Source: Betaproteobacteria bacterium (GTDB lineage: Bacteria > Pseudomonadota > Gammaproteobacteria > Burkholderiales > Thiobacillaceae). Taken from it: a stretch of DNA of 34,688 nt. Positions 135 to 26,574 of the stretch are shown piece after piece. The position numbers were made by a program, and so were the translations under genes. The notes beneath the pieces are model-generated. The model was not told where the DNA came from. It searched no databases and saw only the letters and a program-made list of their open reading frames with translations. The stretch is taken from NCBI GenBank assembly GCA_016873935.1, contig VGVT01000023.1, forward strand, positions 1 through 34,688. The letters run 5' to 3'. Position 1 is the stretch's first letter; each line of letters starts with the position of its first letter.

Positions 135-353
135 TCGACATCGATGCCAAATAACCCAACGGGTCAGCTTCGATTTCCATAACGGCTTGCCTGCAAACTA
201 GGGGCTCTTGTTGTTGATGACCAATGAGTACCTTTGTTGTTGTGTGTGTTGTAGTATGTAACTGCATGTCAGTATGTGACACACCTATATTATTGTATTT
301 AAAGTTAAAAATATAAATTTTGTGTATTTGTATGGTTGATATCGTGTAATTCC
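135..353. other. AT-rich spacer ahead of the Fic gene
   Basis: No gene is seen here. From about 200 the sequence becomes strongly AT-rich (runs such as TTTAAAGTTAAAAATATAAATT around 298-320), unlike the GC-rich remainder of the window. It probably holds the promoter of the Fic gene, but no clear -35/-10 pair can be chosen with confidence. The composition shift, next to insertion-sequence-like repeats, fits horizontally acquired DNA. Confidence 0.5.
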
Positions 354-1514
354 ATGCCGCCTGCTTTTGTTGATTTTCCGTTGCGCGTTGTCGCGCCAGA
401 CTTCACTTCACCGCTCACTGACGTGGTGATGGAGCTTGAGCATTTGCGCCGGCTTGAACTCGCCGGGGATACGCCTGCGGCGGTGTTCTTTCAGCTCAAA
501 ACCATTTTCCACACACTGGAAAGCCTGGGGTCTGCCCGCATCGAGGGCAACCACACGACGCTGGCCGATTACATCGAGAGCAAGATCGATGCGCCTGCCA
601 ACCCCGCCGAGAACATTCTGGAGGTGCGGAACATCGAGATGGCGATGGATTATGTGGAAGACGCCGTGCAGGTCGGCGCCGCGATTACCGAGCAGTTGGT
701 TCGCGAATTGCATCAGATGACGGTGGGCGGTCTGATCCGGGAGGGGGACAAGACGCCGGGCAGGTATCGCGATGGCAATGTGCAGATCGCTGGCGCGGCG
801 CACCTGCCGCCGGATGTGGCGGCCGTGCCGGGGTATATGCAGGAGCTGGTCGAATTCATCAACCGAGACGATCCGCATAAATACGACCTGCTCAAGATGG
901 CGCTGGTGCATCACCGGTTTTGCTGGATACACCCGTTTGGCAACGGCAATGGCCGGGTGGTGCGACTGGTGAGCTACGCGATGATGATCAAGTACGGATT
1001 CAATGTGAAAACGGGCGGCCGGGTGCTGAACCCGACGGCCGTTTTTTGCAACGACCGTGATGCGTATTACGCGATGCTTTCAGGCGCCGATACGGGCACG
1101 GACGAGGGGCTGGAGGCTTGGTGTCTGTATGTGCTGAGCGGTATTCGGGATGAGTTGCAGAAGGTAGACCGGCTGACTCGCTACGATTACCTGAAGGATG
1201 AAATCCTCAGGCCGGCACTGGCGCATAGCAAATCAAGAAAGCTGATCACCAGCAGAGAAGAAGCTGTGCTTGCAATGGCGATTGCCAAGCGGGAATTCAA
1301 GGCGGCCGATCTGGATGGCGTGCTTCCTGCACTGACGATGCGCCAGCGTTCATACCAGCTCAGCAAGCTGCTGGATGCGCACATGATCCGACCGGTGCGT
1401 GAAGGTGCGCGCAGCTATACGATCAACTTCACCAACAGCTATCTGCTGCGTGGCGTGATCCATGCGCTGGAGCAAAAAGGCTTCATTCCGCCGCTGGTGA
1501 AGGCGGGTGGCTGA
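354..1514 (+). CDS. Fic-domain protein (probable AMPylase-type), COG3177-like
   Basis: Fic proteins usually transfer AMP or another nucleotide part onto target proteins. The catalytic loop reads HPFGNGNGR (about residues 193-201 counted from this start), matching HxFx(D/E)GNGR except that Asn replaces the metal-binding acidic residue. An SARIEGN segment near residue 60 fits the inhibitory (S/T)xxxE(G/N) helix of class II Fic proteins, so the protein is probably self-inhibited. The last 110 residues look like a winged-helix region. The ATG at 354 is preferred; an in-frame TTG at 336 would add six residues, and neither has a good ribosome site. hsdM starts 48 bp downstream; Fic genes of this group are often found inside type I restriction-modification loci. 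The target is unknown, and the Asn variant may reduce or alter activity. Confidence 0.85.
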
Positions 1515-1562
1515 GATCGAACCCAACGCAACAACCGTCTGAAATGGCGGTATGGATCAAGA

Positions 1563-3161
1563 ATGAATACCGCAACCATCGTCCAAAAACTCTGGAACTA
1601 CTGCAACGTCCTGCGCGACGACGGCATGAGCTACGGCGACTACGTCGAGCAGCTCACCTATCTGCTGTTCCTGAAGATGGCTGACGAGCGCAGCCGGCCG
1701 CCCTACAACCAAGCCAGCCCGGTGCCCGCCGGGTATGACTGGCCAAGCTTGGTGAAGAAGGACGGCGACGAACTGTTCGACCACTACCGCCACACGCTGG
1801 AGGAACTGGGCAAGCAGAAGGGCCTGCTCGGTCTGATCTTCACCAAGTCGCAGAACAAGTTCCAGGACCCGGCAAAACTGCGGCGGCTGATCGTGGACCT
1901 GATCGACAAGGAAACCTGGGTGTCGATGAGCGCCGACGTGAAGGGCGACGCCTACGAGGGCCTGCTGGAGAAGAACGCGCAGGACACCAAGTCCGGCGCG
2001 GGCCAGTACTTCACGCCGCGCCCGCTGATCCAGGCGATTGTCGATGCCATGGCGCCCCGGCCCGGCGAGACCGTCTCCGACCCGGCCTGCGGCACCGGCG
2101 GCTTTCTGCTGGCGGCGCACGACTATGTGGTGAAGCACTATCCCAACATGACGTCGGCGGAGAAGAAGAAGCTGCGCGGGGAAAGCTTCAAGGGCTGGGA
2201 GCTGGTGCAGGCCACCGCCCGGCTGTGCGCGATGAACATGCTGTTGCACGGCATCGGCAGCCAGGAGTTCGAGCCGATTGCGGTGGGCGATTCGCTGGCC
2301 GCCGACCCCGGCGATCGCTTCGACGTGGTGCTGACCAATCCGCCCTTCGGCAAGAAGAGCAGCACCACCATCGTGGGCGAGGAGGGCAAGGTCAGCAAGG
2401 AGCGCGACACCGTCGAGCGCGACGACTTCTGGGCCACCACCTCGAACAAGCAGCTCAACTTCGTCCAGCACGTGAAGACGTTGCTGAAGCAGAACGGCCG
2501 CGCCGCCGTGGTCGTGCCCGACAACGTGCTGTTCGAAGGCGGGGCCGGCGAGACCATCCGCCGCAAACTGCTGCACGACTGCGACGTCCACACCCTGCTG
2601 CGCCTGCCCACCGGCCTGTTCTACGCCCAGGGCGTGAAGGCGAACGTGCTGTTCTTCGACAAGAAGCCCGCCTCTGAGACCCCGTGGACCAGGAAGCTGT
2701 GGATCTACGACCTGCGCACCAACATGCACTTCACGCTGAAGACCGATCCGCTGAAGCGGGAGGATCTGGATGAGTTCGTGCGGTGTTACAACCCGGCGAA
2801 CCGGCATGACCGGAAGGCGACTTGGTATGCGGAGGCTTCACCCCCACCCCAGCCCTCCCCCCTCGAGGGGGAGGGGGGATCAACTCCGCCCCTGTCCTCC
2901 CGCCTCGAGGGGGAGGGAGTTGTTGGTGAGGAGGTTGGGGCGAAGGGCCGCTGGCGGGCGTATGACTACGAGGAACTGGTCAGCCGCGACAAGGCCAGCC
3001 TGGACATCTTCTGGCTGAAGGACGAGTCGCTGTCCGACTCCGACAACCTGCCCGCGCCGGAAGTAATCGCGGCGGAGATCGTGGAAGACCTGGAGGCGGC
3101 TCTGGAGCAGTTCCGGGAGATTCTGGGGGATATGGGGCCGGAGGCGGCCGAGGTCACTTGA
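1563..3161 (+). CDS. hsdM: Type I restriction-modification methyltransferase subunit HsdM
   Basis: HsdM is the adenine-N6 methylating subunit of type I restriction-modification enzymes; it works as M2S with HsdS, which reads the DNA site. Residues 1-130 match the helical HsdM N-terminal domain; the SAM-binding motif I DPACGTGGF is at 173-181 and the catalytic NPPF at 259-262. The C-terminal helix region (about 465-525, containing DIFWLKDESL) is intact. Residues of about 425-461 are a low-complexity Pro/Glu/Gly segment absent from ordinary HsdM and encoded by a palindromic repeat (separate entry). Length is 532 residues, about 37 over what the flanking homologous parts would need. No hsdS or hsdR follows; the next gene is a membrane protein. 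It is either an orphan methylase, a relic of a broken system, or served by an HsdS elsewhere. Confidence 0.92.
   Translation: MNTATIVQKLWNYCNVLRDDGMSYGDYVEQLTYLLFLKMADERSRPPYNQASPVPAGYDWPSLVKKDGDELFDHYRHTLEELGKQKGLLGLIFTKSQNKFQDPAKLRRLIVDLIDKETWVSMSADVKGDAYEGLLEKNAQDTKSGAGQYFTPRPLIQAIVDAMAPRPGETVSDPACGTGGFLLAAHDYVVKHYPNMTSAEKKKLRGESFKGWELVQATARLCAMNMLLHGIGSQEFEPIAVGDSLAADPGDRFDVVLTNPPFGKKSSTTIVGEEGKVSKERDTVERDDFWATTSNKQLNFVQHVKTLLKQNGRAAVVVPDNVLFEGGAGETIRRKLLHDCDVHTLLRLPTGLFYAQGVKANVLFFDKKPASETPWTRKLWIYDLRTNMHFTLKTDPLKREDLDEFVRCYNPANRHDRKATWYAEASPPPQPSPLEGEGGSTPPLSSRLEGEGVVGEEVGAKGRWRAYDYEELVSRDKASLDIFWLKDESLSDSDNLPAPEVIAAEIVEDLEAALEQFREILGDMGPEAAEVT
2837..2948. repeat. REP-like palindromic element inserted in frame in hsdM
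   Basis: Two G/C-run palindromes centred on CTCGAG (about 2853-2878 and 2897-2917) lie inside a longer imperfect inverted repeat. The outer arms are CTTCACCCCCACC at the left and GGTTGGGGCGAAG at the right, and the second unit is also framed by CAACTCC (2881-2887) and GGAGTTG (2916-2922). Such elements are normally intergenic in Proteobacteria. Here the element is read through in frame as a segment containing PSPLEGEGG and SRLEGEG. Element limits are approximate. Confidence 0.75.
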
Positions 3162-3239
3162 GTGTGAGCGGACTTGTCATCGGCGTTGATCTCCAGCATA
3201 CCGGCACGCAACGGGTTGGCCTGCTGAAGGTGCAGTGAT

Positions 3240-3914
3240 GTGATGCCTGAAACCCTAATGTCGAGTACCGAAGGCCGGCTGCTGGGTATAGGTCTCGCGC
3301 TGTCAGTCTTGATGCTGCTGGCGTTTGGCATCGGGGCGCAGATGTTTCCGGACAGCGTGCTTACCTACGCGGCCATGACCGGGCTCAACCTGGTCATCGG
3401 TCGCGCCGCCGGGATGTCGTTCGGCTACGCGAGCGGCTTCGGCCATGCCCAGGTGGTGCCCATCAACATGCTGGTGGAGACCATCCAGGTGCTGGTGGTG
3501 TACCCCCTCTTCGCACTGAGCTGGCGGCAACTGATCCGGCTGCCCCAACTGGAAGCCTCTCTCGCGCGATTGCGCCACGCGGCCGAGTTGCGGGGCGACA
3601 CGGTGCGCAGGTTCGGCATCGCCGGCCTGTTTGTGTTCGTGTTTTTGCCGTTCTGGATGACCGGGCCGGTTGTGGGAGCGATCATCGGCTTCCTGATTGG
3701 CCTGCGCCCCTGGGTGAACATGGGGGTGGTGCTGGTGGCGACCTATGTCGCCATCGGCGTCTGGGCGCTGCTGCTGAACGAGCTCAGTGCCTGGGCGGCG
3801 ACCGTCAACCGCTTCGCGCCCTACGCGCTGTTCGTGGCGATCGTGCTCATCGCCGGGGTCATGTATCTGCTGCACCGTCGCGATCGTCCCGCCGGCGATG
3901 CGTCCAATGCATAG
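3240..3914 (+). CDS. Small multidrug export family membrane protein (COG2426-like)
   Basis: A 224-residue integral membrane protein with about five to six hydrophobic helices (for example near 15-35, 80-97, 126-150, 155-180 and 195-215). The pattern, including the conserved-looking GLFVFVFLPFWMTGPVVGAIIGFLIGL stretch from about residue 128, resembles the putative small multidrug export family (Sm_multidrug_ex). Members are poorly characterised and transport has not been firmly shown for most. The GTG at 3240 has an AAGG nine bases upstream; an ATG directly follows it and could be used instead. It is followed 55 bp later by a nucleoside transporter on the same strand. Family call is from recall of the sequence pattern; substrate is unknown. 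Confidence 0.7.
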   Translation: MMPETLMSSTEGRLLGIGLALSVLMLLAFGIGAQMFPDSVLTYAAMTGLNLVIGRAAGMSFGYASGFGHAQVVPINMLVETIQVLVVYPLFALSWRQLIRLPQLEASLARLRHAAELRGDTVRRFGIAGLFVFVFLPFWMTGPVVGAIIGFLIGLRPWVNMGVVLVATYVAIGVWALLLNELSAWAATVNRFAPYALFVAIVLIAGVMYLLHRRDRPAGDASNA

Positions 3915-3969
3915 CGTCTTCGCCGTCCTGGCCAAGCCTGCCTGGCTCTAACCCGGCTACCATTGGTTC

Positions 3970-5220
3970 ATGCTCCCCAACCTGCAAAGCGCCCTCGGCA
4001 TCCTGGCCTTCGTCGGCCTGGCCTGGGTCTTGAGCGAGAACCGGGCCCGGTTTCCCACGCGTATCGTGCTGGCGGGCCTGGCGCTGCAATTCGTGCTGGC
4101 CGTGGCGTTGTTGAAGCTGCCCCTGTTCCAGGGCGTGTTCATGGCCTTGAACGAGGCCCTCGGCGCCCTGGAGCACGCCACCCAGGCGGGCACCAGTTTC
4201 GTCTTCGGCTACCTGGGCGGCGGCGCGGCGCCGTTCGCGGTGACCGATCCGTCCTCCTCCTTCGTGCTGGCCTTTCGCGCCCTGCCGCTGATCCTGGTGG
4301 TGAGCGCGTTGTCCTCCCTGCTGTTCTACTGGCGGGTGCTGCCCTGGCTGGTGCGGGCGGTTTCGCACCTGCTGCGCAAGACCCTGGGCATCGGCGGGGC
4401 GGTGGGCCTGTCGGCGGCGGCGGACATTTTCGTCGGCATGGTCGAGGCGCCGCTGTTCGTGCGGCCCTATCTGGCGGCCATGAGCCGCGGCGAACTGTTT
4501 TCGGTGATGACCTGCGGCATGGCGACGGTGGCGGGCACGGTGATGGCGCTCTACGCCAGCTTCCTGGCCCCGGTGGTGCCGGGCGCCATGGGCCACATCC
4601 TCACCGCCTCGCTGGTGAGCACGCCGGGGGCGCTGCTCATCGCCGCCCTGATGGTGCCGGCGGGGGAGGCGTCCACCGCGGGCGAGCTGAAGGCGCCGGA
4701 CTCCGCCCGTTCCAGCATGGAGGCCATCACCCAGGGCACCCTGGCGGGGGTGACGCTGCTCATCAACATCGTCGCCATGCTGCTGGTGTTCGTCGCCCTG
4801 GTGAGCCTGGGCAACCTGCTGCTCGGCCTGCTGCCGGACGTGCAGGGCGGGCCGCTTTCCCTGCAACGGGTGCTGGGCTGGGTGATGGCGCCGGTGGTGT
4901 GGCTGATCGGAATTCCCTGGGCCGAGGCCACCACCGCGGGCAGCCTGATGGGTACCAAGACCGTGCTCAACGAGCTCATCGCCTACCTGGACATGGCCCG
5001 CCTGCCGGCCGAGGCCCTGAGCCCGCGCAGCGACCTGATCATGACCTATGCCCTGTGCGGCTTCGCCAACCTGGGCAGCCTCGGCATCCTCATCGGCGGC
5101 CTCGTCACCATGGTCCCCGAACGCCGCGCCGACATCGTCTCCCTGGCCCCCAAGGCGGTGCTCTCCGGCACCCTGGCGACGCTGCTGACCGGCGCGGTGG
5201 TGGGCTTGCTGACGGTGTGA
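3970..5220 (+). CDS. Concentrative nucleoside transporter (CNT/NupC family)
   Basis: CNT proteins import nucleosides across the inner membrane coupled to protons or sodium. The 416-residue length is normal for bacterial members. Family signatures seen are the N-terminal three-helix Nucleos_tra2_N region, GTSFVFGYLGG near residue 78, and the C-terminal half with FVGMVEAPLFVRPYL, MATVAGTVMALYA and, late, IGIPWAEATTAGSLMGTKTVLNEL. The conserved EAP and TTAGSLMGTKTVLNE elements correspond to substrate- and ion-site regions in the family. No good Shine-Dalgarno sequence precedes the ATG, but no better start is visible. It may be co-transcribed with the preceding membrane protein gene. Which nucleosides it carries cannot be read from the sequence. 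Confidence 0.9.
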   Translation: MLPNLQSALGILAFVGLAWVLSENRARFPTRIVLAGLALQFVLAVALLKLPLFQGVFMALNEALGALEHATQAGTSFVFGYLGGGAAPFAVTDPSSSFVLAFRALPLILVVSALSSLLFYWRVLPWLVRAVSHLLRKTLGIGGAVGLSAAADIFVGMVEAPLFVRPYLAAMSRGELFSVMTCGMATVAGTVMALYASFLAPVVPGAMGHILTASLVSTPGALLIAALMVPAGEASTAGELKAPDSARSSMEAITQGTLAGVTLLINIVAMLLVFVALVSLGNLLLGLLPDVQGGPLSLQRVLGWVMAPVVWLIGIPWAEATTAGSLMGTKTVLNELIAYLDMARLPAEALSPRSDLIMTYALCGFANLGSLGILIGGLVTMVPERRADIVSLAPKAVLSGTLATLLTGAVVGLLTV

Positions 5221-5315
5221 GCCTCGGTGGATGCTGTTGCCCGGCTGCGGGCCGGTGTGCAAGGCGCCGGTGTTTTCGGGGATGATCGCGGGCCAGGTTT
5301 CACGGGAGGAATAAC

Positions 5316-6296
5316 ATGAGCGAGATGCAGGGTGAAGTGCTGCTGTATCAGACCCCCGAGGGGGGGCCGGCGCTGGATGTGCGGCTGGAGCGGGAAACGG
5401 TGTGGCTGACCCAGTTTCAGATGGCCGAGCTTTTTGGGGTGAATGTTCCAGCGGTGTTCAAACACATCAAGAACATCTACGCCACCGGCGAACTGGAGCC
5501 CAAGTCAACTGTTTCCAAAATGGAAATAGTTCGCCAGGAAGGAAAGCGGATGGTCAGGAGGGCTGTAGACCACTACAGCCTGGATATGGCGATATCCGTT
5601 GGCTATCGGGTGAACTCCCTGCGCGGTACCCAGTTCCGCATCTGGGCCACCAACGTACTGCGCCAGCATCTGGTGCGAGGTTACAGCGTGCATGAGCGGC
5701 GGCTGAAGGACCTCAACCAGGCCGTGCGTCTGATTGCCGTCGTGGCCCAGCGCCGGCCTCTGAGCGGGGACGAGGCCAGCGCCCTGCTGAACGTGGTGGG
5801 GGACTATGCCTATGCCCTGGAAGTGCTGGACGACTACGACCACCAGCGGGTACGACTGGGAGAGGTCTCGGCTGGCCCGGTGGTGGCACTCGGCCTCGAC
5901 GAAGCCAGGCAGGTGATCGTGCGCATGGGCGAGCGCTTCGGTGCTTCCGGCCTGTTCGGCCGTCAGAAGGACGAGGGCCTGGAGGGTTCTCTGTCCGCCG
6001 TGATGCAGACCTTCGGCGGCCAGGAGGTCTACCCAAGCCTGGAAGAAAAGGCCGCCCATCTCCTGTACTTCCTGGTGAAGAACCACCACTTCGTGGACGG
6101 CAACAAACGCATCGCGGCGGCCTTGTTCCTGTGGTTCCTTGAAAAGAACCGGGCCCTCTACCGGGCCGAAGGTGGCAAGCGCATCGCCGACAATGCTCTG
6201 GTGGCCATGACCCTGCTTATCGCCGAGAGCCGGCCGGAGGAAAAAGACGTGCTGACCCGCGTGGTGGTGAACCTGATCAATCGGCGCAATGCCTGA
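5316..6296 (+). CDS. RhuM-family protein fused to a C-terminal Fic/Doc domain
   Basis: Residues 1 to about 135 match the virulence-RhuM family (VWLTQFQMAELFGVNVPAVFKHI, then SLDMAISVGYRVNS and TQFRIWATNVLRQHL). Residues from about 190 form a Fic/Doc fold with the loop HHFVDGNKR at 257-265. The GNKR ending is the Doc form (HxFx(D/E)xNKR) seen in Doc toxins that phosphorylate EF-Tu, unlike the GNGR of the first Fic gene in this window. RhuM was named from a Salmonella pathogenicity island; its biochemical role is not established. No Phd-like antitoxin gene flanks it, so the N-terminal half may itself restrain or direct the Fic domain (inference). A strong GGGAGGA lies just upstream of the ATG. 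The RhuM-Fic architecture is known in other bacteria. Confidence 0.88.
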   Translation: MSEMQGEVLLYQTPEGGPALDVRLERETVWLTQFQMAELFGVNVPAVFKHIKNIYATGELEPKSTVSKMEIVRQEGKRMVRRAVDHYSLDMAISVGYRVNSLRGTQFRIWATNVLRQHLVRGYSVHERRLKDLNQAVRLIAVVAQRRPLSGDEASALLNVVGDYAYALEVLDDYDHQRVRLGEVSAGPVVALGLDEARQVIVRMGERFGASGLFGRQKDEGLEGSLSAVMQTFGGQEVYPSLEEKAAHLLYFLVKNHHFVDGNKRIAAALFLWFLEKNRALYRAEGGKRIADNALVAMTLLIAESRPEEKDVLTRVVVNLINRRNA

Positions 6297-7885: not shown

Positions 7886-9439
7886 ATGACCACCCTGCAA
7901 AGCTACGACGACCTGCCCTACGAGAGCGTGCCGATCACCGATACGCATCCGGATTACCTGGGCGCTCTGGCGCGGCTGTTCGGGGTGGAGACGGCGCCGG
8001 CGGAGGCCTGCCGGGTCCTGGAGCTGGGCTGTGCCGGCGGCGGCAACCTGGTGCCGATGGCGTTTCATCTGCCCGGCAGCCGCTTCGTCGGCATCGACCT
8101 CGCCCGCGCGCACGTCGACGAGGCGAGTGCCTGGATCAGCGAACTGGGGCTGGACAACATCCGGGTACTGCATCGCAGTGTCAGTGACGACCTCTCCGAT
8201 CTGGGGGAATTCGACTACATCCTGGCGCACGGCCTCTATTCCTGGGTGCCGCGGCCGGTGCAGGACGCGATCCTGGCGGTGTGCGCGCGCCAGCTCGCGG
8301 CCAACGGCGTGGCCTACGTCAGCTACAACACCCTGCCGGGCTGGCACGCCCGCGCCGGCCTGCGCGCCATGCTGCTGCAGCACTGCGCGGCGGGGGCGCC
8401 GGCCTCGCAGCGTCTGGCCCAGGCGCATGGCCTGTTTGATTTCCTGGAGCCCGCCCTGCGCCTGAACCCGGCCGACGACGCGCGCGGCCTGCTCGCTGAG
8501 ATCGAGTATCTGCGGCGGGCACCGCCTTCCTATGTCTATCACGAGTACCTGGAGGAGACCAACGAGCCGGTCTGGTTCGGCGAGTTCATGGCGCGTGCCG
8601 GCGCCGCTGGCCTGGATTACCTGGCCGACGCGGGCATTGCCAGCATGTTGCCGGAAACCCTGGGGCAGGAGGCCGAAGCCATGCTGGCCGGCGAGACCGA
8701 CCGCATCCGCCGCGAGCAGCTCATGGATTGCGCGCGTCTGCGCAAATTCCGCCGCACCCTGCTGGTTCGGCGTGGCGTTGGCGGCCGTGAGCGGCCCGAC
8801 CTGGAGGCGTTCCGCGGCCTGGGCTTGCACGCCGACCTGTCGCGCGCCGGAGAGATCGACCTCGCCAGCGCGACGCCCGAGGAGTTCGACCTGCCGGCGG
8901 GCGGCCACTGCGTGCTTACCCACCCTGTCGCCAAGGCCGCTGCCATGCTGCTGGCCTCGCGCTATCCCGACAGCCTGTCGTGGCCGCAGTTGCGCGCCGG
9001 CGCCGAGGACCTGCTGGCCGCGCACGGCAGCCCGCTGGCCGGCGCGGCGGAGAACGAGTCGGCCCTGCTCAGCGAGCTCTACAGCCTGGTCGCGCATCAG
9101 GCCGCCCGCGTGTCGCGGCGGGCCCAGCCGCTGGCGCTGGACGACCTGCCGACACGACCGGCCGCGCACGCTCTGGCCCGTAGCCAGGCCGGTCGCGGTC
9201 GCGTGCTGGCCTCCTCGCGCCACGTCGCGGTCGATCTGGACCCGCACGGTGCCCGCCTGGTCGCGGCGCTCGATGGCAGCCGCGATCTCGACGGGTTGAC
9301 CGCCTGGCTGTCCGACCACCTCTGCGCCGAGGGCCTGCTGCCGCCGCCGCACGCTGCGCTGCGCGACGCCGTGCACGCCCTGTTGTGGACCCTGGCGCGC
9401 GGCGGAGCGCTGTCGTCCGGCGGCGGGGAAGCGGCCTGA
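7886..9439 (+). CDS. Class I SAM methyltransferase with methyltransferase regulatory domain
   Basis: A 517-residue protein. SAM motif I is VLELGCAGGGN at residues 44-54, followed by an acidic strand end (GIDLA, 69-73), typical of Rossmann methyltransferases. The middle and C-terminal parts match the pattern of the MethyTransf_Reg family (segment YLRRAPPSYVYHEYLEETNEPVWF near 212-235), found in proteins related to protein-lysine methyltransferases, though the target is unknown. The ATG at 7886 gives the N-terminus typical of the family (YDDLPYES, then THPDYLGALA); a longer reading frame upstream is not needed. The stop codon overlaps the start of the next gene (TGATG), so the two are probably translated together. 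Confidence 0.82.
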   Translation: MTTLQSYDDLPYESVPITDTHPDYLGALARLFGVETAPAEACRVLELGCAGGGNLVPMAFHLPGSRFVGIDLARAHVDEASAWISELGLDNIRVLHRSVSDDLSDLGEFDYILAHGLYSWVPRPVQDAILAVCARQLAANGVAYVSYNTLPGWHARAGLRAMLLQHCAAGAPASQRLAQAHGLFDFLEPALRLNPADDARGLLAEIEYLRRAPPSYVYHEYLEETNEPVWFGEFMARAGAAGLDYLADAGIASMLPETLGQEAEAMLAGETDRIRREQLMDCARLRKFRRTLLVRRGVGGRERPDLEAFRGLGLHADLSRAGEIDLASATPEEFDLPAGGHCVLTHPVAKAAAMLLASRYPDSLSWPQLRAGAEDLLAAHGSPLAGAAENESALLSELYSLVAHQAARVSRRAQPLALDDLPTRPAAHALARSQAGRGRVLASSRHVAVDLDPHGARLVAALDGSRDLDGLTAWLSDHLCAEGLLPPPHAALRDAVHALLWTLARGGALSSGGGEAA

Positions 9440-14637: not shown

Positions 14638-15153
14638 ATGCATGATGTGGAAGCACTGCGCCGGGACATCGTCGGCATGGTCGACGAACTGCGTTCGGCC
14701 ATCGAGGACATCGGCGACGGCGGCATGCCGGAAGCGAATGTGGTCAGCAACGCCCGCGACCGCCTGCGTTACATCTCGGCGCTTACCGAGCAGGCGGCGG
14801 GACGCAGCCTGAACGCGGCGGAAGCCATCGCCGACCGCCTGCATGCCCAGCGCGCGCGCGCCGAGGCCCTCATGGGCAGGACGCGATCGCCGGCGCTGCG
14901 AGCTTTCCTCGCCGAATTGCGCGAGGAGCACGAACTCAGCGCCGCCGACACCAGCGAGATCATCCAGGCCCAGGCCTTCCAGGATCTGGTCGGCCAGGTG
15001 GTGAACAAGCTGATGGTGACGGTGCAGAAAATGGAGGATGGCCTTGTCCACCTGCTGCTGGATGACGAGCCCGATCCCGGACTCCTGGCCGGTCCAGCCG
15101 TCACGCCGCGGGCGGCGATTTCCCAGGACGACGTCGATAGCCTGTTCGACTGA
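14638..15153 (+). CDS. CheZ-like protein phosphatase
   Basis: CheZ removes phosphate from the response regulator CheY and resets flagellar signalling. The 171-residue helical protein contains AQAFQDLVGQVV at 111-122, matching the catalytic AQDFQDLTGQVI of CheZ; Asp116 and Gln120 correspond to catalytic D143 and Q147 of the E. coli enzyme. The C-terminal SQDDVDSLFD resembles the CheZ tail that docks on CheY. It is shorter than E. coli CheZ (214 residues). CAGGAGG precedes the ATG. No cheY or other chemotaxis gene is nearby; instead it sits between nnrS and the nir cluster, so it may act on a different receiver-domain protein. Confidence 0.82.
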   Translation: MHDVEALRRDIVGMVDELRSAIEDIGDGGMPEANVVSNARDRLRYISALTEQAAGRSLNAAEAIADRLHAQRARAEALMGRTRSPALRAFLAELREEHELSAADTSEIIQAQAFQDLVGQVVNKLMVTVQKMEDGLVHLLLDDEPDPGLLAGPAVTPRAAISQDDVDSLFD

Positions 15154-15186: not shown

Positions 15187-15294
15187 TCAAACCACGGTGA
15201 ACAGGTAGAGCATGCCGAAGTGAAAGACGATGAAGAGGACCACACCGTAGAAGACGGCGGCGTTTTCGCTTTTCTCGAAGGCTTTTTGCAACAT
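15187..15294 (-). CDS. 35-residue single-span membrane protein
   Basis: Not recognised. The product starts MLQKAFEKSENAAV and continues as one hydrophobic helix (about residues 12-35, with FYGVVLFIVFHFGMLYLF), which fits a single-pass inner-membrane protein with a short charged cytoplasmic start. A GGAG site lies eight bases before the ATG. It is the last gene in the direction of the nir operon, 124 bases after the nirN stop. It also has its own FNR/DNR-type box at 15403-15416 and a hairpin in its leader. Its size recalls small accessory subunits of respiratory enzymes such as CcoQ-type proteins, but no homology is claimed. The ribosome site, codon-like composition and dedicated regulatory site argue that it is a real gene. 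Confidence 0.7.
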   Translation of the reverse strand: MLQKAFEKSENAAVFYGVVLFIVFHFGMLYLFTVV

Positions 15295-15322
15295 GGCGAT
15301 TCTCCAGAGGGTTGGGGGGTTA

Positions 15323-15344
15323 AGAGCCTACTGAAATAGGCTCT
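15323..15344 (-). other. Hairpin in the leader of the 35-residue gene
   Basis: AGAGCCTA (15323-15330) and TAGGCTCT (15337-15344) form a perfect 8-bp stem with a CTGAAA loop on the plus strand. It lies between the box at 15403 and the small gene start at 15294. Without a T-run after it on the minus strand, it could stop or process read-through RNA from nirN, or stabilise the small-gene message. Confidence 0.5.
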
Positions 15345-15402
15345 AAGGTCTGCGTCACGGGAAAACGATAGGGGCCATGCCCGTCCGGGTCCAGACCGCG
15401 CT

Positions 15403-15416
15403 TTGATGATTGTCAA
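15403..15416. promoter_or_regulatory. FNR/DNR-type box between nirN and the 35-residue gene
   Basis: TTGATGATTGTCAA matches TTGAT-N4-ATCAA at 9 of 10 fixed positions and starts just past the nirN stop codon. The centre is about 115 bases before the small gene start. A TATCGT on the minus strand (15365-15370) could be a -10, which would put the centre near -51. It suggests a promoter separate from the nirS operon promoter. Confidence 0.7.
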
Positions 15417-15418
15417 CG

Positions 15419-16999
15419 TCAGTGGCTGGTGCCGGCGGACAGCCGGGTCTTGTTCCATACGTTGTACTTGCCCACCGGGCGCTTCATCGGCAGGCGCTTG
15501 ACCTCCTTCAGGGTTTTCGCGTCGTAGACGATCAGGGCGCCGTCCATCTCCCACAGCGAGACCAGGGCGTACTTGCCGTAACGGTCGAACTCCACGTGCG
15601 TGGCGGTCTTGCCCGGTTCGGGCTTGAGGTCGGCCACCACTTCCAGGCTGCGCTTGTCGATGACGTGCATGACGTCGCGGTTCTTGCCGAAGAAGACGTC
15701 CGCCCAGGCGTAGGGCGTCTCCTCGTGGCTGCGCAGGAAGAAGCCGGGACCGGCGGTGGGGATGACCTTCAGCGTCTTCCAAGTCTTCATGTCGATGACC
15801 TGGATGTGGCCGTCCTTCAGGTTGGGCGAGGCCATCACCGGATGGGTGACGCCCTTGTCGTCGGTCCACTCCCAGGTGATGCCGGAACCCAGGTGCGGCA
15901 TGCCGGGGATGTCCAGGTCGGCGATCTTGCGGCCGACACCCATGTGCACCACCTGGCCCTTGGGCACGTCGCGGGAGGCGCCCATCAGGTAGTTGTAGCT
16001 TTGGTCGAAGAAGAAATCGTCGAGGATCTGATCGAGCACGATCTGCCGCACCGGCAGGGGGCCGGGCTCGGCAATGGCCTCCTTGTACTGATAGTCGTGC
16101 ACCAGGCCCTTGTAGACCGGACGGCCGTCGTAGGGGATCTCCCAGACCTCCGGGATGTCCTTCAGCGCCGCCACGAAGCTGGCGCGCGGCCGCGCGTCGT
16201 AGACCGCGGAGACGCGCGAGGTCTTGCCGTTCCTGGCCACCACGGGAATCACCTTGACCAGGGAAAGATCCTTGCCGCTGAGGGCGACGAGCGTATGCGG
16301 CAGGTAGTTGGCCACCATGACGTATTGCCCGTCGCTGGACACGGCGACGTTGCGGGTGTTGATGCCGGCGCGCACTTCCGCCACCACCTTCAGGTTCCAC
16401 AGGTCGTACTTGGTGATCCAGCCGTCCCGCGAAGCCCAGTAGACGAAGCGCCCGTCCGGGGTGAACTTGGGGCCGCCGTGCAGGGCGTAGCGGGTCTGGA
16501 AGCGGTGGAAGGGTTCCATGACGTCGCCGTCGAGGATGCTGATGTGATGGTCGCCATGCTCCACCACCAGGGTGACGTTGCTCGGATCGGCCTTGAACAC
16601 CGGTTTCGCGGGCAGGCCCACGTTCTCCGTGTTGACGATGTGGGAGGCGGTGATGTCCTCGGCGTCCCACTTCGGCGGAATCTTGTTGGGGGTGTAGATC
16701 CAGGCCGTCAGGACCTGCATCTCGTCCTCTTTCAGCATCTCCTTGAAGCCGGGCATCTGCGTGGCAGGCAGGCCTTCGGCGATGGCCTTGTAGGCGTCGG
16801 CCCTCTTCAGCCTGGCCAGGGATTCCGGCAGCAGGGTGGGGCCCATGCCGCCCAGGCGGTTGGGGGCGTGGCAGGACAGGCAGTGGGTCTCGTAGAGCTT
16901 CTCGGGATCGGGGGCGGCGTGGGCGGGGCTGATGAAACCCACGCAAAGGGCGGCCATCATGATCCAAGAGGTTGCCAATCGTGCCTTCCACTTTCGCAA
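15419..16999 (-). CDS. nirN: Dihydro-heme d1 dehydrogenase NirN
   Basis: NirN is a periplasmic cytochrome c with a d1-type propeller that carries out the last step of heme d1 synthesis, oxidising a propionate side chain to acrylate. The 526-residue product has a c-heme site CLSCH at 40-44, followed by MGPTLLPESL, then a d1-propeller (HGDHHISILDGDVMEPFHRF onward). The Pro-rich GGMG and MPGF segments fit a class I cytochrome c. The TTG at 16999 is chosen because it gives a proper signal peptide (MRKWKARLATSWIMMAALCV, cleaved after AHA near 28) and has GGGAG just upstream; the ATG at 16960 would leave no basic residues in front. It follows nirJ after a 134-base gap holding a palindromic repeat. 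It differs from NirS by its N-terminus and lack of the GWD region. Confidence 0.9.
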   Translation of the reverse strand: MRKWKARLATSWIMMAALCVGFISPAHAAPDPEKLYETHCLSCHAPNRLGGMGPTLLPESLARLKRADAYKAIAEGLPATQMPGFKEMLKEDEMQVLTAWIYTPNKIPPKWDAEDITASHIVNTENVGLPAKPVFKADPSNVTLVVEHGDHHISILDGDVMEPFHRFQTRYALHGGPKFTPDGRFVYWASRDGWITKYDLWNLKVVAEVRAGINTRNVAVSSDGQYVMVANYLPHTLVALSGKDLSLVKVIPVVARNGKTSRVSAVYDARPRASFVAALKDIPEVWEIPYDGRPVYKGLVHDYQYKEAIAEPGPLPVRQIVLDQILDDFFFDQSYNYLMGASRDVPKGQVVHMGVGRKIADLDIPGMPHLGSGITWEWTDDKGVTHPVMASPNLKDGHIQVIDMKTWKTLKVIPTAGPGFFLRSHEETPYAWADVFFGKNRDVMHVIDKRSLEVVADLKPEPGKTATHVEFDRYGKYALVSLWEMDGALIVYDAKTLKEVKRLPMKRPVGKYNVWNKTRLSAGTSH

Positions 17000-22158: not shown

Positions 22159-24057
<1,899 letters not shown>

Positions 24058-24058
24058 C

Positions 24059-24064
24059 TACAAT
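24059..24064 (+). promoter_or_regulatory. -10 box of the norCB operon promoter
   Basis: TACAAT matches TATAAT at five of six positions and is correctly placed for a class II FNR/DNR promoter. It argues against the in-frame ATG at 24063 as a start codon, since that ATG overlaps the -10, and supports the GTG at 24096. Confidence 0.7.
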
Positions 24065-24095
24065 GCGCCGCACCTCAACGAGCCAGGAGCGCGTC

Positions 24096-24434
24096 GTGAT
24101 CGTCGAACCCGTCCATCTCGCCAATTTCTTCACGGTCTTTTTCAGCGCCGCGTCGGTCATCCTGTTCGGCGCCCTCTACGCCCTGCTGTTCGCCTGGTCG
24201 CGGGTGCGCGGCCGGCCGCGCCTGATGGCCATGGCCTACGCCGCCTACCTGGGCCTGGCCGCCTCGGTGGTTACCCTGGGCTATGCCGCCAACCTGTTCA
24301 ACAGCGGCTTCTGGACCTTCATCGTCCTGCTCATGCTCGTCGGCTATCTCTTCGCTCCCCACGCCATCTGGCATCTCTGCGTGGGCACCCACGCCGAGGA
24401 GGACGAGATGGTGAAGATTTCTCAACCGCGCTAA
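24096..24434 (+). CDS. 112-residue three-helix membrane protein ahead of norCB
   Basis: Not recognised. The GTG start has AGGAG six bases upstream; the product begins with MIVEPVHLANFFTVFFSAAS. Three hydrophobic helices lie at about 9-32, 42-62 and 67-88, followed by a charged tail (GTHAEEDEMVKISQPR). A conserved-looking FAPHAIWHLCVGTHAEED has two His and one Cys near the membrane edge. It is the first gene of the norCB operon, 12 bases before norC, and directly downstream of the FNR/DNR-driven promoter. The position suggests a role in NO reductase assembly, stability or quinone/NO handling, but this is inference. It is not NorE (a larger subunit III-like protein), judging by length. Confidence 0.8.
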   Translation: MIVEPVHLANFFTVFFSAASVILFGALYALLFAWSRVRGRPRLMAMAYAAYLGLAASVVTLGYAANLFNSGFWTFIVLLMLVGYLFAPHAIWHLCVGTHAEEDEMVKISQPR

Positions 24435-24446
24435 GGAGGCATTCAC

Positions 24447-25112
24447 ATGTCGCAAACGCAAACGCAAACGCTCTGGTGGGCATCGGAATCCTTCTGGAAG
24501 AAGATGGCCGTCTGGATCACGGCCGGCTCGGCCGTGGTGCTCATCTTTCTGACCTTCGACACGGTCAAGCAGATCACCGCCGGCGGCAAACGCGTGCCGG
24601 CCTATTCGGTGATCAACAACCGCATCGACTACGTGTTCGACGAGAAGCGCAACCATCAGGTGCCGGTCATCGGCCCGGAGGAGCCGCTGTTCGGCAAGAA
24701 GCTGACCGAGGAGGAGGCCATGGCCCTGGTCAGCAAGGGCAAGCTCACCACCCAGGCGAAGAACTGCATGAACTGCCATACCCTGCTGGGCAACGGTTCC
24801 TACTACGCGCCCGACCTCACCAAGTCCTGGCTGGACCCTACCTGGGGCACCAAGCAGTTGCGCGAGCAGCAGATGGTGGACTTCCTCATGAATCCTCAGG
24901 ATTACCTGTACAACTCCCTCGGCCGCCGCATGCCCAACCTGGGCATCACCGAGGAGGAAGCGCGCGCCACGGTGGCCTTCCTGAAGTGGATGTCATCGAT
25001 CGACACCAACGGCTTCCCGCGTAACTTCAAGCCCATCGATCAGACCGACCCCGCTCCCGACGCGGCGCCCGCCGCTCCGGCTGATGCCGCCGCCGCCCCG
25101 GTTCAACAGTAA
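24447..25112 (+). CDS. norC: Nitric oxide reductase cytochrome c subunit NorC
   Basis: NorC is the membrane-anchored c-type cytochrome that feeds electrons to NorB. The 221-residue protein has one N-terminal helix (about 20-39) and the heme site CMNCH at 107-111, then TLLGNGSYYAPDLTKSW; the distal Met lies in RRMPNLGI near residue 160, and KWMSSIDTNGFPRNF fits the usual C-terminal end. It is longer than the Pseudomonas form (about 146): a linker of about 40 extra residues follows the helix, and an Ala/Pro/Asp-rich tail of about 22 residues ends the protein. AAGGAGG lies upstream of the ATG. Confidence 0.96.
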   Translation: MSQTQTQTLWWASESFWKKMAVWITAGSAVVLIFLTFDTVKQITAGGKRVPAYSVINNRIDYVFDEKRNHQVPVIGPEEPLFGKKLTEEEAMALVSKGKLTTQAKNCMNCHTLLGNGSYYAPDLTKSWLDPTWGTKQLREQQMVDFLMNPQDYLYNSLGRRMPNLGITEEEARATVAFLKWMSSIDTNGFPRNFKPIDQTDPAPDAAPAAPADAAAAPVQQ

Positions 25113-25122
25113 GGAGATACAC

Positions 25123-26574
25123 ATGGCAGCTCTTGGAACCCTCAGTTCCGCCAATCTCAACGGCGGACAGAAACTGGCGGTGAAGTTTTTCACCGTCGCC
25201 ATCGCCCTGTTCGGCGCCCAGGTCCTGTTCGGCATGCTGGCCGGCATCCAGTACCTGAAGCCGGACTTCCTGTTCGGCATCCTCGACTTCTCCGTCAACC
25301 GCATGCTGCACATCAACGCCTTGGTGGTGTGGCTGCTGTTCGGCTTCATCGGCGCGGTGTACTGGATACTGGAGGATGAATCCGGCACGCCGGTGGTCGG
25401 CCTGGGCCTGGGCAACCTGATGTTCTGGGTGTTCACCTTGGCCGTGGTGGTGGTGGTGCTGGTCTACCTGCTGGTGCAGACCGGTCCGGGCGAGCTGAAG
25501 TCGATCTGGCTCATCAACGAGGGCCGCGAGTACATCGAGGCGCCGCGCTGGGCCGACATCGGCATCGTGGTGTGCGTGCTGATCTTCTTCTACAACGTCG
25601 CCGCCACCTTCATGAAGGGCCGCTTCACCGGCATCGGCGGGGTGCTGGTGTTCGACCTGGTCGCCCTGGCCGGCCTGTATCTGGCGGGCATGTGGTACAC
25701 CCCCAACATCTCCATGGATCAGCACTGGTGGTGGTGGGTGATCCACCTCTGGGTGGAAGCCACCTGGGAAGTGCTGGTCGGCTGCCTGCTGGCCTACGGC
25801 CTGATCAAGACCATGGGCGTGCGCCGCAAGATCGTCGAGACCTGGCTGTACATCGAAGTGGCGCTGCTGTTCGGCTCCGGCATCCTGGGCCTGGGTCACC
25901 ACTACTTCTGGATCGGCACGCCGGAGTACTGGCTCGCCATCGGCGGCTTCTTCTCCGCCCTGGAGCCCATCCCGCTGGTGGCCATGGTGGTGCACGCGGT
26001 GTTCGACGCCGGCCATCACAAGATGAAGAGCGCCAACCATCCCGCCCTGGCGTGGATGATCGCGCAGGCCTTCGGCAACTTCTTCGGCGCCGGCGTCTGG
26101 GGCTTCATGCACACCCTGCCGCAGATCAACATCTACACTCACGGCACCCAGTGGACCGCCTCGCACGGCCACCTGGCCTTCTTCGGCGCCTACGCCACCA
26201 TCGTCATCGCCTTCATCTACCTGGCGGTGCAGAAATGGCGCGGCAACGTCTGGATGAGCGGCAACATGGCCGGGGCCTGGAGATGGAAATGGGCGATGTT
26301 CCTGCTGCACGCCGGCATGATCGGCATGACCATGGCCCTGCTCATCGCCGGCTACGAGCAATCCCACATCGAACGCGCCATCGGTGGTTCCACCTGGATG
26401 GCCTACTTCGAAGCCCAGGCCGGACCGTGGTTCCAGCAGGCCATGACCTGGCGGATGATCTCCGGCTGGTCGTTCGCCGCCGGTTTCGTCCTGCTGGCCT
26501 GGGACCTGATGACCATCGGCAAGCGCGAGACCCGTCCGGCGCAATTGCCCGCCGCCGAGGCCGCCGCCGCCTGA
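25123..26574 (+). CDS. norB: Nitric oxide reductase catalytic subunit NorB
   Basis: NorB reduces two NO to N2O at a heme b3-FeB site in the inner membrane. The 483-residue protein has about 12 helices. Key residues seen: His63 (RMLHIN, heme b ligand), His208 and Glu212 in IHLWVEATWE, His259-His260 in GHHYFWIG, Glu281 in EPIPL, and His348 and His350 in SHGHLAFFGAYA. These match the FeB and heme ligands and the catalytic glutamates of cNOR. AAGGAGATACAC precedes the ATG, 10 bases after norC. A strong terminator follows; norD, norQ and norE are not in the window. Confidence 0.97.
   Translation: MAALGTLSSANLNGGQKLAVKFFTVAIALFGAQVLFGMLAGIQYLKPDFLFGILDFSVNRMLHINALVVWLLFGFIGAVYWILEDESGTPVVGLGLGNLMFWVFTLAVVVVVLVYLLVQTGPGELKSIWLINEGREYIEAPRWADIGIVVCVLIFFYNVAATFMKGRFTGIGGVLVFDLVALAGLYLAGMWYTPNISMDQHWWWWVIHLWVEATWEVLVGCLLAYGLIKTMGVRRKIVETWLYIEVALLFGSGILGLGHHYFWIGTPEYWLAIGGFFSALEPIPLVAMVVHAVFDAGHHKMKSANHPALAWMIAQAFGNFFGAGVWGFMHTLPQINIYTHGTQWTASHGHLAFFGAYATIVIAFIYLAVQKWRGNVWMSGNMAGAWRWKWAMFLLHAGMIGMTMALLIAGYEQSHIERAIGGSTWMAYFEAQAGPWFQQAMTWRMISGWSFAAGFVLLAWDLMTIGKRETRPAQLPAAEAAAA

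Follow-up and report, generated by a model that had tools for sequence, protein, structure and literature searches.

The minus-strand frame 15187-15294 of the window (the whole 34,688-nt stretch of DNA analysed here) is a real, conserved protein gene. Its product, MLQKAFEKSENAAVFYGVVLFIVFHFGMLYLFTVV (35 aa, hereafter the 35-mer), probably represents a new family of a known kind, the very small accessory proteins with a single helix that respiratory enzymes have. We lean somewhat towards its being an accessory subunit, or an assembly or stability factor, of a NorH-type cNOR (NorH-NorC-NorB); among the partners proposed for it in the original prediction (NirS, the NOR complex or another electron carrier), the NOR complex is the best supported. 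The features of the window on which the analysis draws are collected in Table 1.

Table 1. Coordinates and assignment of the small gene, its control elements and the neighbouring denitrification genes in the window.
Feature	Position	Strand	Basis
35-aa single-helix membrane protein gene	15187..15294	-	frame, homologues, pN/pS, AlphaFold2 model
Ribosome-binding site CTGGAG + 7-nt spacer	15295..15307	-	sequence
Leader hairpin	15322..15345	-	leader fold z -2.0 in window
Dedicated FNR/DNR-type box, minus-strand reading TTGACAATCATCAA	15403..15416	-	perfect consensus match
cheZ-like gene, converging	14638..15153	+	Pfam
nirN (cytochrome c + d1 domain), upstream neighbour	15419..16996	-	Pfam; start provisional
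nirS	22159..23934	-	Pfam
norH homologue	24063..24434	+	similarity to Thermus ORF; start uncertain
norC	24447..25112	+	Pfam cytochrome c
norB (start taken as 25123)	25084..26574	+	Pfam COX1; 62% identical to Thermus thermophilus NorB

The small frame, put forward as a gene of the kind that automated callers pass over, had been predicted to have a good ribosome site, which was found, and GGAG-like sites also lie 5' of most starts among the relatives' loci. AlphaFold2, run on the single sequence, returned one long helix spanning residues 2-34 (mean pLDDT 94.5), in agreement with the single clear transmembrane helix proposed. The charged start that was also proposed proved weak, two K being offset by two E. 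Searches of Pfam and NCBIfam with the 35-mer at E <=10 returned no family in either. Searched against PDB chains, the 35-mer profile gave nothing at E <1 and a single match at E <=10, an LH2 beta chain (E 1.3); no sequence similarity to small subunits of the CydX or CcoM kind was therefore detected in this set of solved structures, which presumably includes the CydX and CcoM chains. The plasmid collection contained no match to the 35-mer, and no account of it was found in the titles and abstract openings searched, which cover the literature in part.

A search with the single sequence matched 40 of 101 genomes at E <=1, and a profile (A3) built from 25 sequences matched, at E <=0.01, 43 of the 117 genomes from the taxonomic family to which the window belongs. 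The nine matches in an order sample of 399 genomes all came from that same family. The class sample (369 genomes) yielded the window's own genome plus six partial matches (E 0.003-0.01), and the phylum sample (339 genomes) two family members plus one partial match at 0.004; these partial matches were taken as noise, and the three samples gave nothing convincing for the profile outside the taxonomic family. The 24 named matches include Thiobacillus, Thiobacillaceae, Hydrogenophilus, Hydrogenophilales, Gallionellaceae and one Tepidiphilus, together with MAGs whose label goes no further than Burkholderiales, Betaproteobacteria, Pseudomonadota or bacterium.

Selection was assessed over 30 codons in 40 sequences, rows L059 and L067 being left out. 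Mean pS was 0.61 and mean pN 0.25, pN was smaller than pS in 774 of the 780 pairs, and the third codon position was the most variable. The window and locus L031 differ at two third positions, both silent, and encode the identical protein. Residues Q3, E10, N11, A13, V14 and H25 were invariant across the 40 sequences; Q3, E10, N11 and H25 are also kept in the two rows left out, where position 13 is S and the C-terminus altered in L059, and position 14 is A in L067. Judged from these substitution patterns, the gene is under purifying selection. The absence of a conserved homologue and of synonymous bias, named beforehand as the outcome that would count against the gene, was not what these genomes and pairs revealed. 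A conserved helical face was rejected, none of the faces being significant (permutation p 0.26). Near 8576-8918 of locus L066 (genome G002, contig 3) lies a second, decayed copy, in which what is left of nirN is short and only the C-terminal part of the small ORF comes after it; G002 also has an intact copy elsewhere in the genome.

The original prediction had further assigned the gene a dedicated anaerobic/NO box and a leader hairpin. The box at 15403-15416 (TTGATGATTGTCAA) is perfect, and its far edge lies 122 nt 5' of the ATG. With nirN as the upstream neighbour on the same strand and cheZ converging from downstream, this box can serve the 35-mer gene only. Eight boxes of FNR/DNR type with at most one mismatch (six of them perfect) were found in the window, versus 1.3 expected by chance; the same type is present beside nirS/norH (23962, 23992, 24022) and nnrS (12824). 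The three boxes between nirS and norH (23962-24035) are perfect and spaced at exactly 30 nt, forming a phased array. When the 300 nt 5' of the start were inspected at 38 loci, the window's own and 37 from relatives, a perfect TTGAYNNNNRTCAA was found in 32 of the 38 upstream regions, with the box centre 62-115 nt from the start, that is, a TTGAY-N4-RTCAA at promoter distance, as in genes of an FNR/DNR regulon. Shuffled upstream regions gave a mean of 0.05 of 38 with a perfect box (maximum 1), and when these loci were divided into consecutive 300-nt windows, 55 of the 2019 held a perfect box, the gene's own boxes counted in.

Six of the 38 loci had no perfect box. In L044, where the small gene lies directly after norB, the box has two mismatches, and in L058 and L060 one each; L067 has a TTG start and is perhaps decaying, while in L071 and L080 the small gene leads norHCB. 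A further set of seven, L122-L128 (L124 being the same locus as L080), yielded just one perfect box, in L126, and one with a single mismatch, in L127; the g6 loci in which the small gene leads norHCB have none that is perfect. A perfect box is nonetheless kept in seven loci (L046, L051, L055, L057, L062, L063 and L065) though no nir or nor gene is present in the fetched stretch, so the gene travels together with its switch. The box is thus conserved, as a candidate FNR/DNR-type site, and the prediction of a dedicated box was borne out. The hairpin, by contrast, was seen in the window but is not conserved: its stretch is missing from L031, the nearest relative, whose 35-mer is identical to that of the window, and it was rejected as a conserved control element. 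In 10 of the 38 rows a TATCGT motif begins 39 nt from the box centre, and in one more 50 nt from it; as a -10 element this would be too distant from a box at -41.5, and the motif may reflect plain inheritance. Consensus scans for a sigma-70 site found none.

NorH is reportedly the third subunit of an ancestral cNOR in Thermus thermophilus, as Bricio et al. are said to have found in 2014. In the plasmid collection, 308 records matched the window NorB; eight fell at 60-80% identity, all of them from T. thermophilus (62%), and the other 300 lay below 60%, with 52 among the matches listed at 39-44%. The Thermus locus contains norC, norB and, after norB, a 98-aa 'hypothetical protein' with several hydrophobic stretches that was taken for NorH by its position. 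The ORF 24063-24434, before norC in the window, is 27% identical to this Thermus ORF over 75 aa (BLASTP E 4e-10 in a one-sequence comparison with no composition correction; family HMM 21 bits; hhalign probability 91%). It had no match in Pfam or NCBIfam, and none in the plasmid collection. The alignment suggests that the window carries norH-norC-norB and, together with a norB 62% identical to that of Thermus, points to a cNOR of NorH type having a place in a Thiobacillus-like lineage. PMC5748679 describes NorH as a further component of the cNOR in Thermus. The 35-mer itself appears unrelated to NorH, BLASTP against the Thermus NorH ORF giving E 0.47 over 8 residues.

The distribution of the small gene follows this NOR lineage. 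With window-type cNorB defined by 68% identity or more, 50 of the 117 family genomes have the window type (fragments included) and 24 an ordinary cNorB (40-45%), while qNOR-like sequences lie near 29%. The small gene was found in 39 of the 50 genomes with window-type norB, in none of the 24 with ordinary cNorB, and in four of the 67 without the window type. Where window-type norB is full-length and intact, 36 of 39 genomes carry it (the misses are G045, G124 and G128), and in genus g6 six of the eight genomes with window-type norB do so. Conversely, 39 of the 43 carriers have window-type norB, the co-inheritance expected of an accessory protein of a NorH-type cNOR; the carriers without a norB match are G005, G030, G031 and G059 (norC piece only in G005). 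The norB copy of G042 contains an in-frame TGA; the 35-mer found no match in this genome. Window-type nirS is present in 34 of the 43 carriers, an association as strong as that with norB (Fisher 7.8e-17 versus 1.5e-16 for norB) because nir and nor often lie together. Thirteen genomes, some with broken contigs, have window-type norB but no window-type nirS, and six of them carry the small gene. In G008, G014 and G016 the small gene is divergent from norH, norB is present, and nirS has no match at E <=1e-20. The single reverse case is G031, in which nirS is cut by the contig end, so norB may be missing from the assembly.

Three f25 genomes have norHCB without a recognisable small gene, and a fourth shows a norB piece only. 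A scan around nor in three of the four f25 loci and in G128 found two hydrophobic ORFs, neither with a good ribosome site, and none of the small ORFs near nor in the f25 loci (the fourth locus covering 3 kb) and G128 has the box. A low-threshold profile scan of 15 genomes with window-type norB gave weak partial matches in six (best E 0.027); that of L177 shares the hydrophobic half but not the Q...SEN half, and may be due to chance or decay. The two Thermus loci scanned contain no homologue of the 35-mer. The Thermus loci, the three f25 norHCB genomes and three family genomes without the small gene together suggest a lineage-specific addition to the enzyme, with a role perhaps in stability, in docking NirS/NirN to the NOR, or in tuning.

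The neighbourhood of the small gene varies among the 43 carriers. It lies directly after nirN, on the same strand, in 17; before norH-norC-norB in five (L122-L125 and L128, the small ORF of L128 running into a stretch of N), and also in the named contig L071; directly after norB in three (L044, L045, L126); and divergent from norH in four (L040, L043, L053 and L059, the last with norH followed by only a norC piece). It therefore adjoins norHCB, or a piece of it, in 12 carriers. In the remaining 14 it is beside neither nirN nor norHCB; in L047 nirN is 1.6 kb upstream with an opposite-strand ORF between, in L127 the small gene converges on nirN, and in L061 it is beside nnrS. The proposal of an accessory subunit for NirS, the NOR or another carrier is thus best backed for the NOR, by co-occurrence with a single NorB type, three arrangements with nor genes and three genomes without a nirS match, although the 17 loci after nirN weigh on the other side. 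In genomes of 1.3-1.4 Mb (L062, L063, L065) the small gene, with its own perfect box, follows an AAA-ATPase/DUF2201 pair (Pfam on L062), and precedes an ORF that we take to be typA-like. Next to the denitrification cluster, at 336-6296 of the window, is an island of restriction-modification type that encodes a Fic domain protein, an HsdM-like methylase and a RhuM/Fic protein.

Instead of the NOR, the 35-mer might serve the cytochrome cd1 nitrite reductase or the d1-heme supply, as an inner-membrane tether or chaperone for NirS, NirN or NirF. The loci after nirN and the frequency of window-type nirS among carriers would both be explained, and PMC5658584 reports NirN, NirF and NirS associated with NorCB in P. 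aeruginosa, an association that would reconcile the nirN and nor linkages and through which both roles could merge. We nevertheless consider this reading unlikely, since G008, G014 and G016 combine the small gene and norB with no nirS match, the 24 ordinary-cNOR genomes lack the small gene (among them that of L133, where nirS and nirN lie beside an ordinary NOR), and in the four g6 loci L122-L125 the small gene leads norHCB, with nirS after norB.

To about the same degree, we doubt that the 35-mer is a general membrane peptide of NO or anoxia stress, belonging to the FNR/DNR regulon but not tied to any one enzyme, perhaps acting with NnrS or modulating a cbb3 oxidase. The perfect boxes of the seven loci whose fetched stretch lacks nir and nor genes are consistent with such a peptide, as are the ∼0.8 Mb between the small gene and norB in the single-contig genome G024, and the small gene of G030, which adjoins nnrS in a genome with no norB match; its scarcity in genomes without window-type norB argues against it. 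It is highly improbable that 15187-15294 is a conserved regulatory RNA or a chance frame beside a promoter, making no protein. The gene is very short, as this would have it, but the excess of synonymous change, the variable third positions, the purely silent differences from L031 and the ribosome sites 5' of most starts all speak for translation.

According to the favoured reading, that of a NOR accessory protein, anoxia or NO would cause an activator, putatively of FNR/DNR type, to bind the dedicated box and switch the small gene on along with the nir and nor operons, in whose region the same box type is found. The 35-mer would then insert as one helix, in a predicted topology, and might pack against NorB, NorC and NorH, with contacts made at one edge of the membrane by the invariant E10-N11 pair and within it by H25; an effect on NOR activity would be presumed. 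The polar E10-N11 pair and the intramembrane H25, being invariant, point to a defined contact more than to simple anchoring, but the conservation pattern marks no significant helical face. The 35-mer would, on this reading, be physically bound to the NOR.

Among known proteins, NorH of T. thermophilus resembles the 35-mer in being a small membrane protein whose gene goes with norC and norB, in a NOR of the same lineage, but the Thermus ORF has 98 aa and several hydrophobic stretches, and its homologue here is a separate ORF before norC. CydX of cytochrome bd and CcoM of cbb3 are small single-helix subunits of respiratory oxidases; like the 35-mer they have 30-40 aa and one helix and are linked to a terminal reductase, whereas the 35-mer has another presumed partner and an invariant intramembrane His, and its profile gave no such match in the PDB search above. 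NorC, described in PMC4816578 as a single-helix cNOR subunit, is likewise anchored by one transmembrane helix beside NorB; unlike NorC, the 35-mer is far smaller and has no heme-binding domain.

A more specific version, put forward tentatively and as distinctly less probable than an accessory role in general, is that the 35-mer is a stoichiometric fourth subunit, whose His25 and Glu10-Asn11, in contact with NorB, tune the delivery of NO, protons or electrons. A NOR 62% identical to Thermus NorB and accompanied by a norH homologue makes the 35-mer a candidate fourth component of the NorH-type cNOR; if this were true, the cNOR of these bacteria would be a four-part enzyme. Descriptions of the cytochrome c-dependent NO reductase usually give NorCB, plus NorH in Thermus. 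The composition of the enzyme would be extended, in chemolithotrophic denitrifiers that govern the release of NO and N2O, by a single-helix protein that is conserved, has regulation of its own and keeps to one NOR lineage. A profile search of raw DNA combined with a conserved box can recover genes this small.
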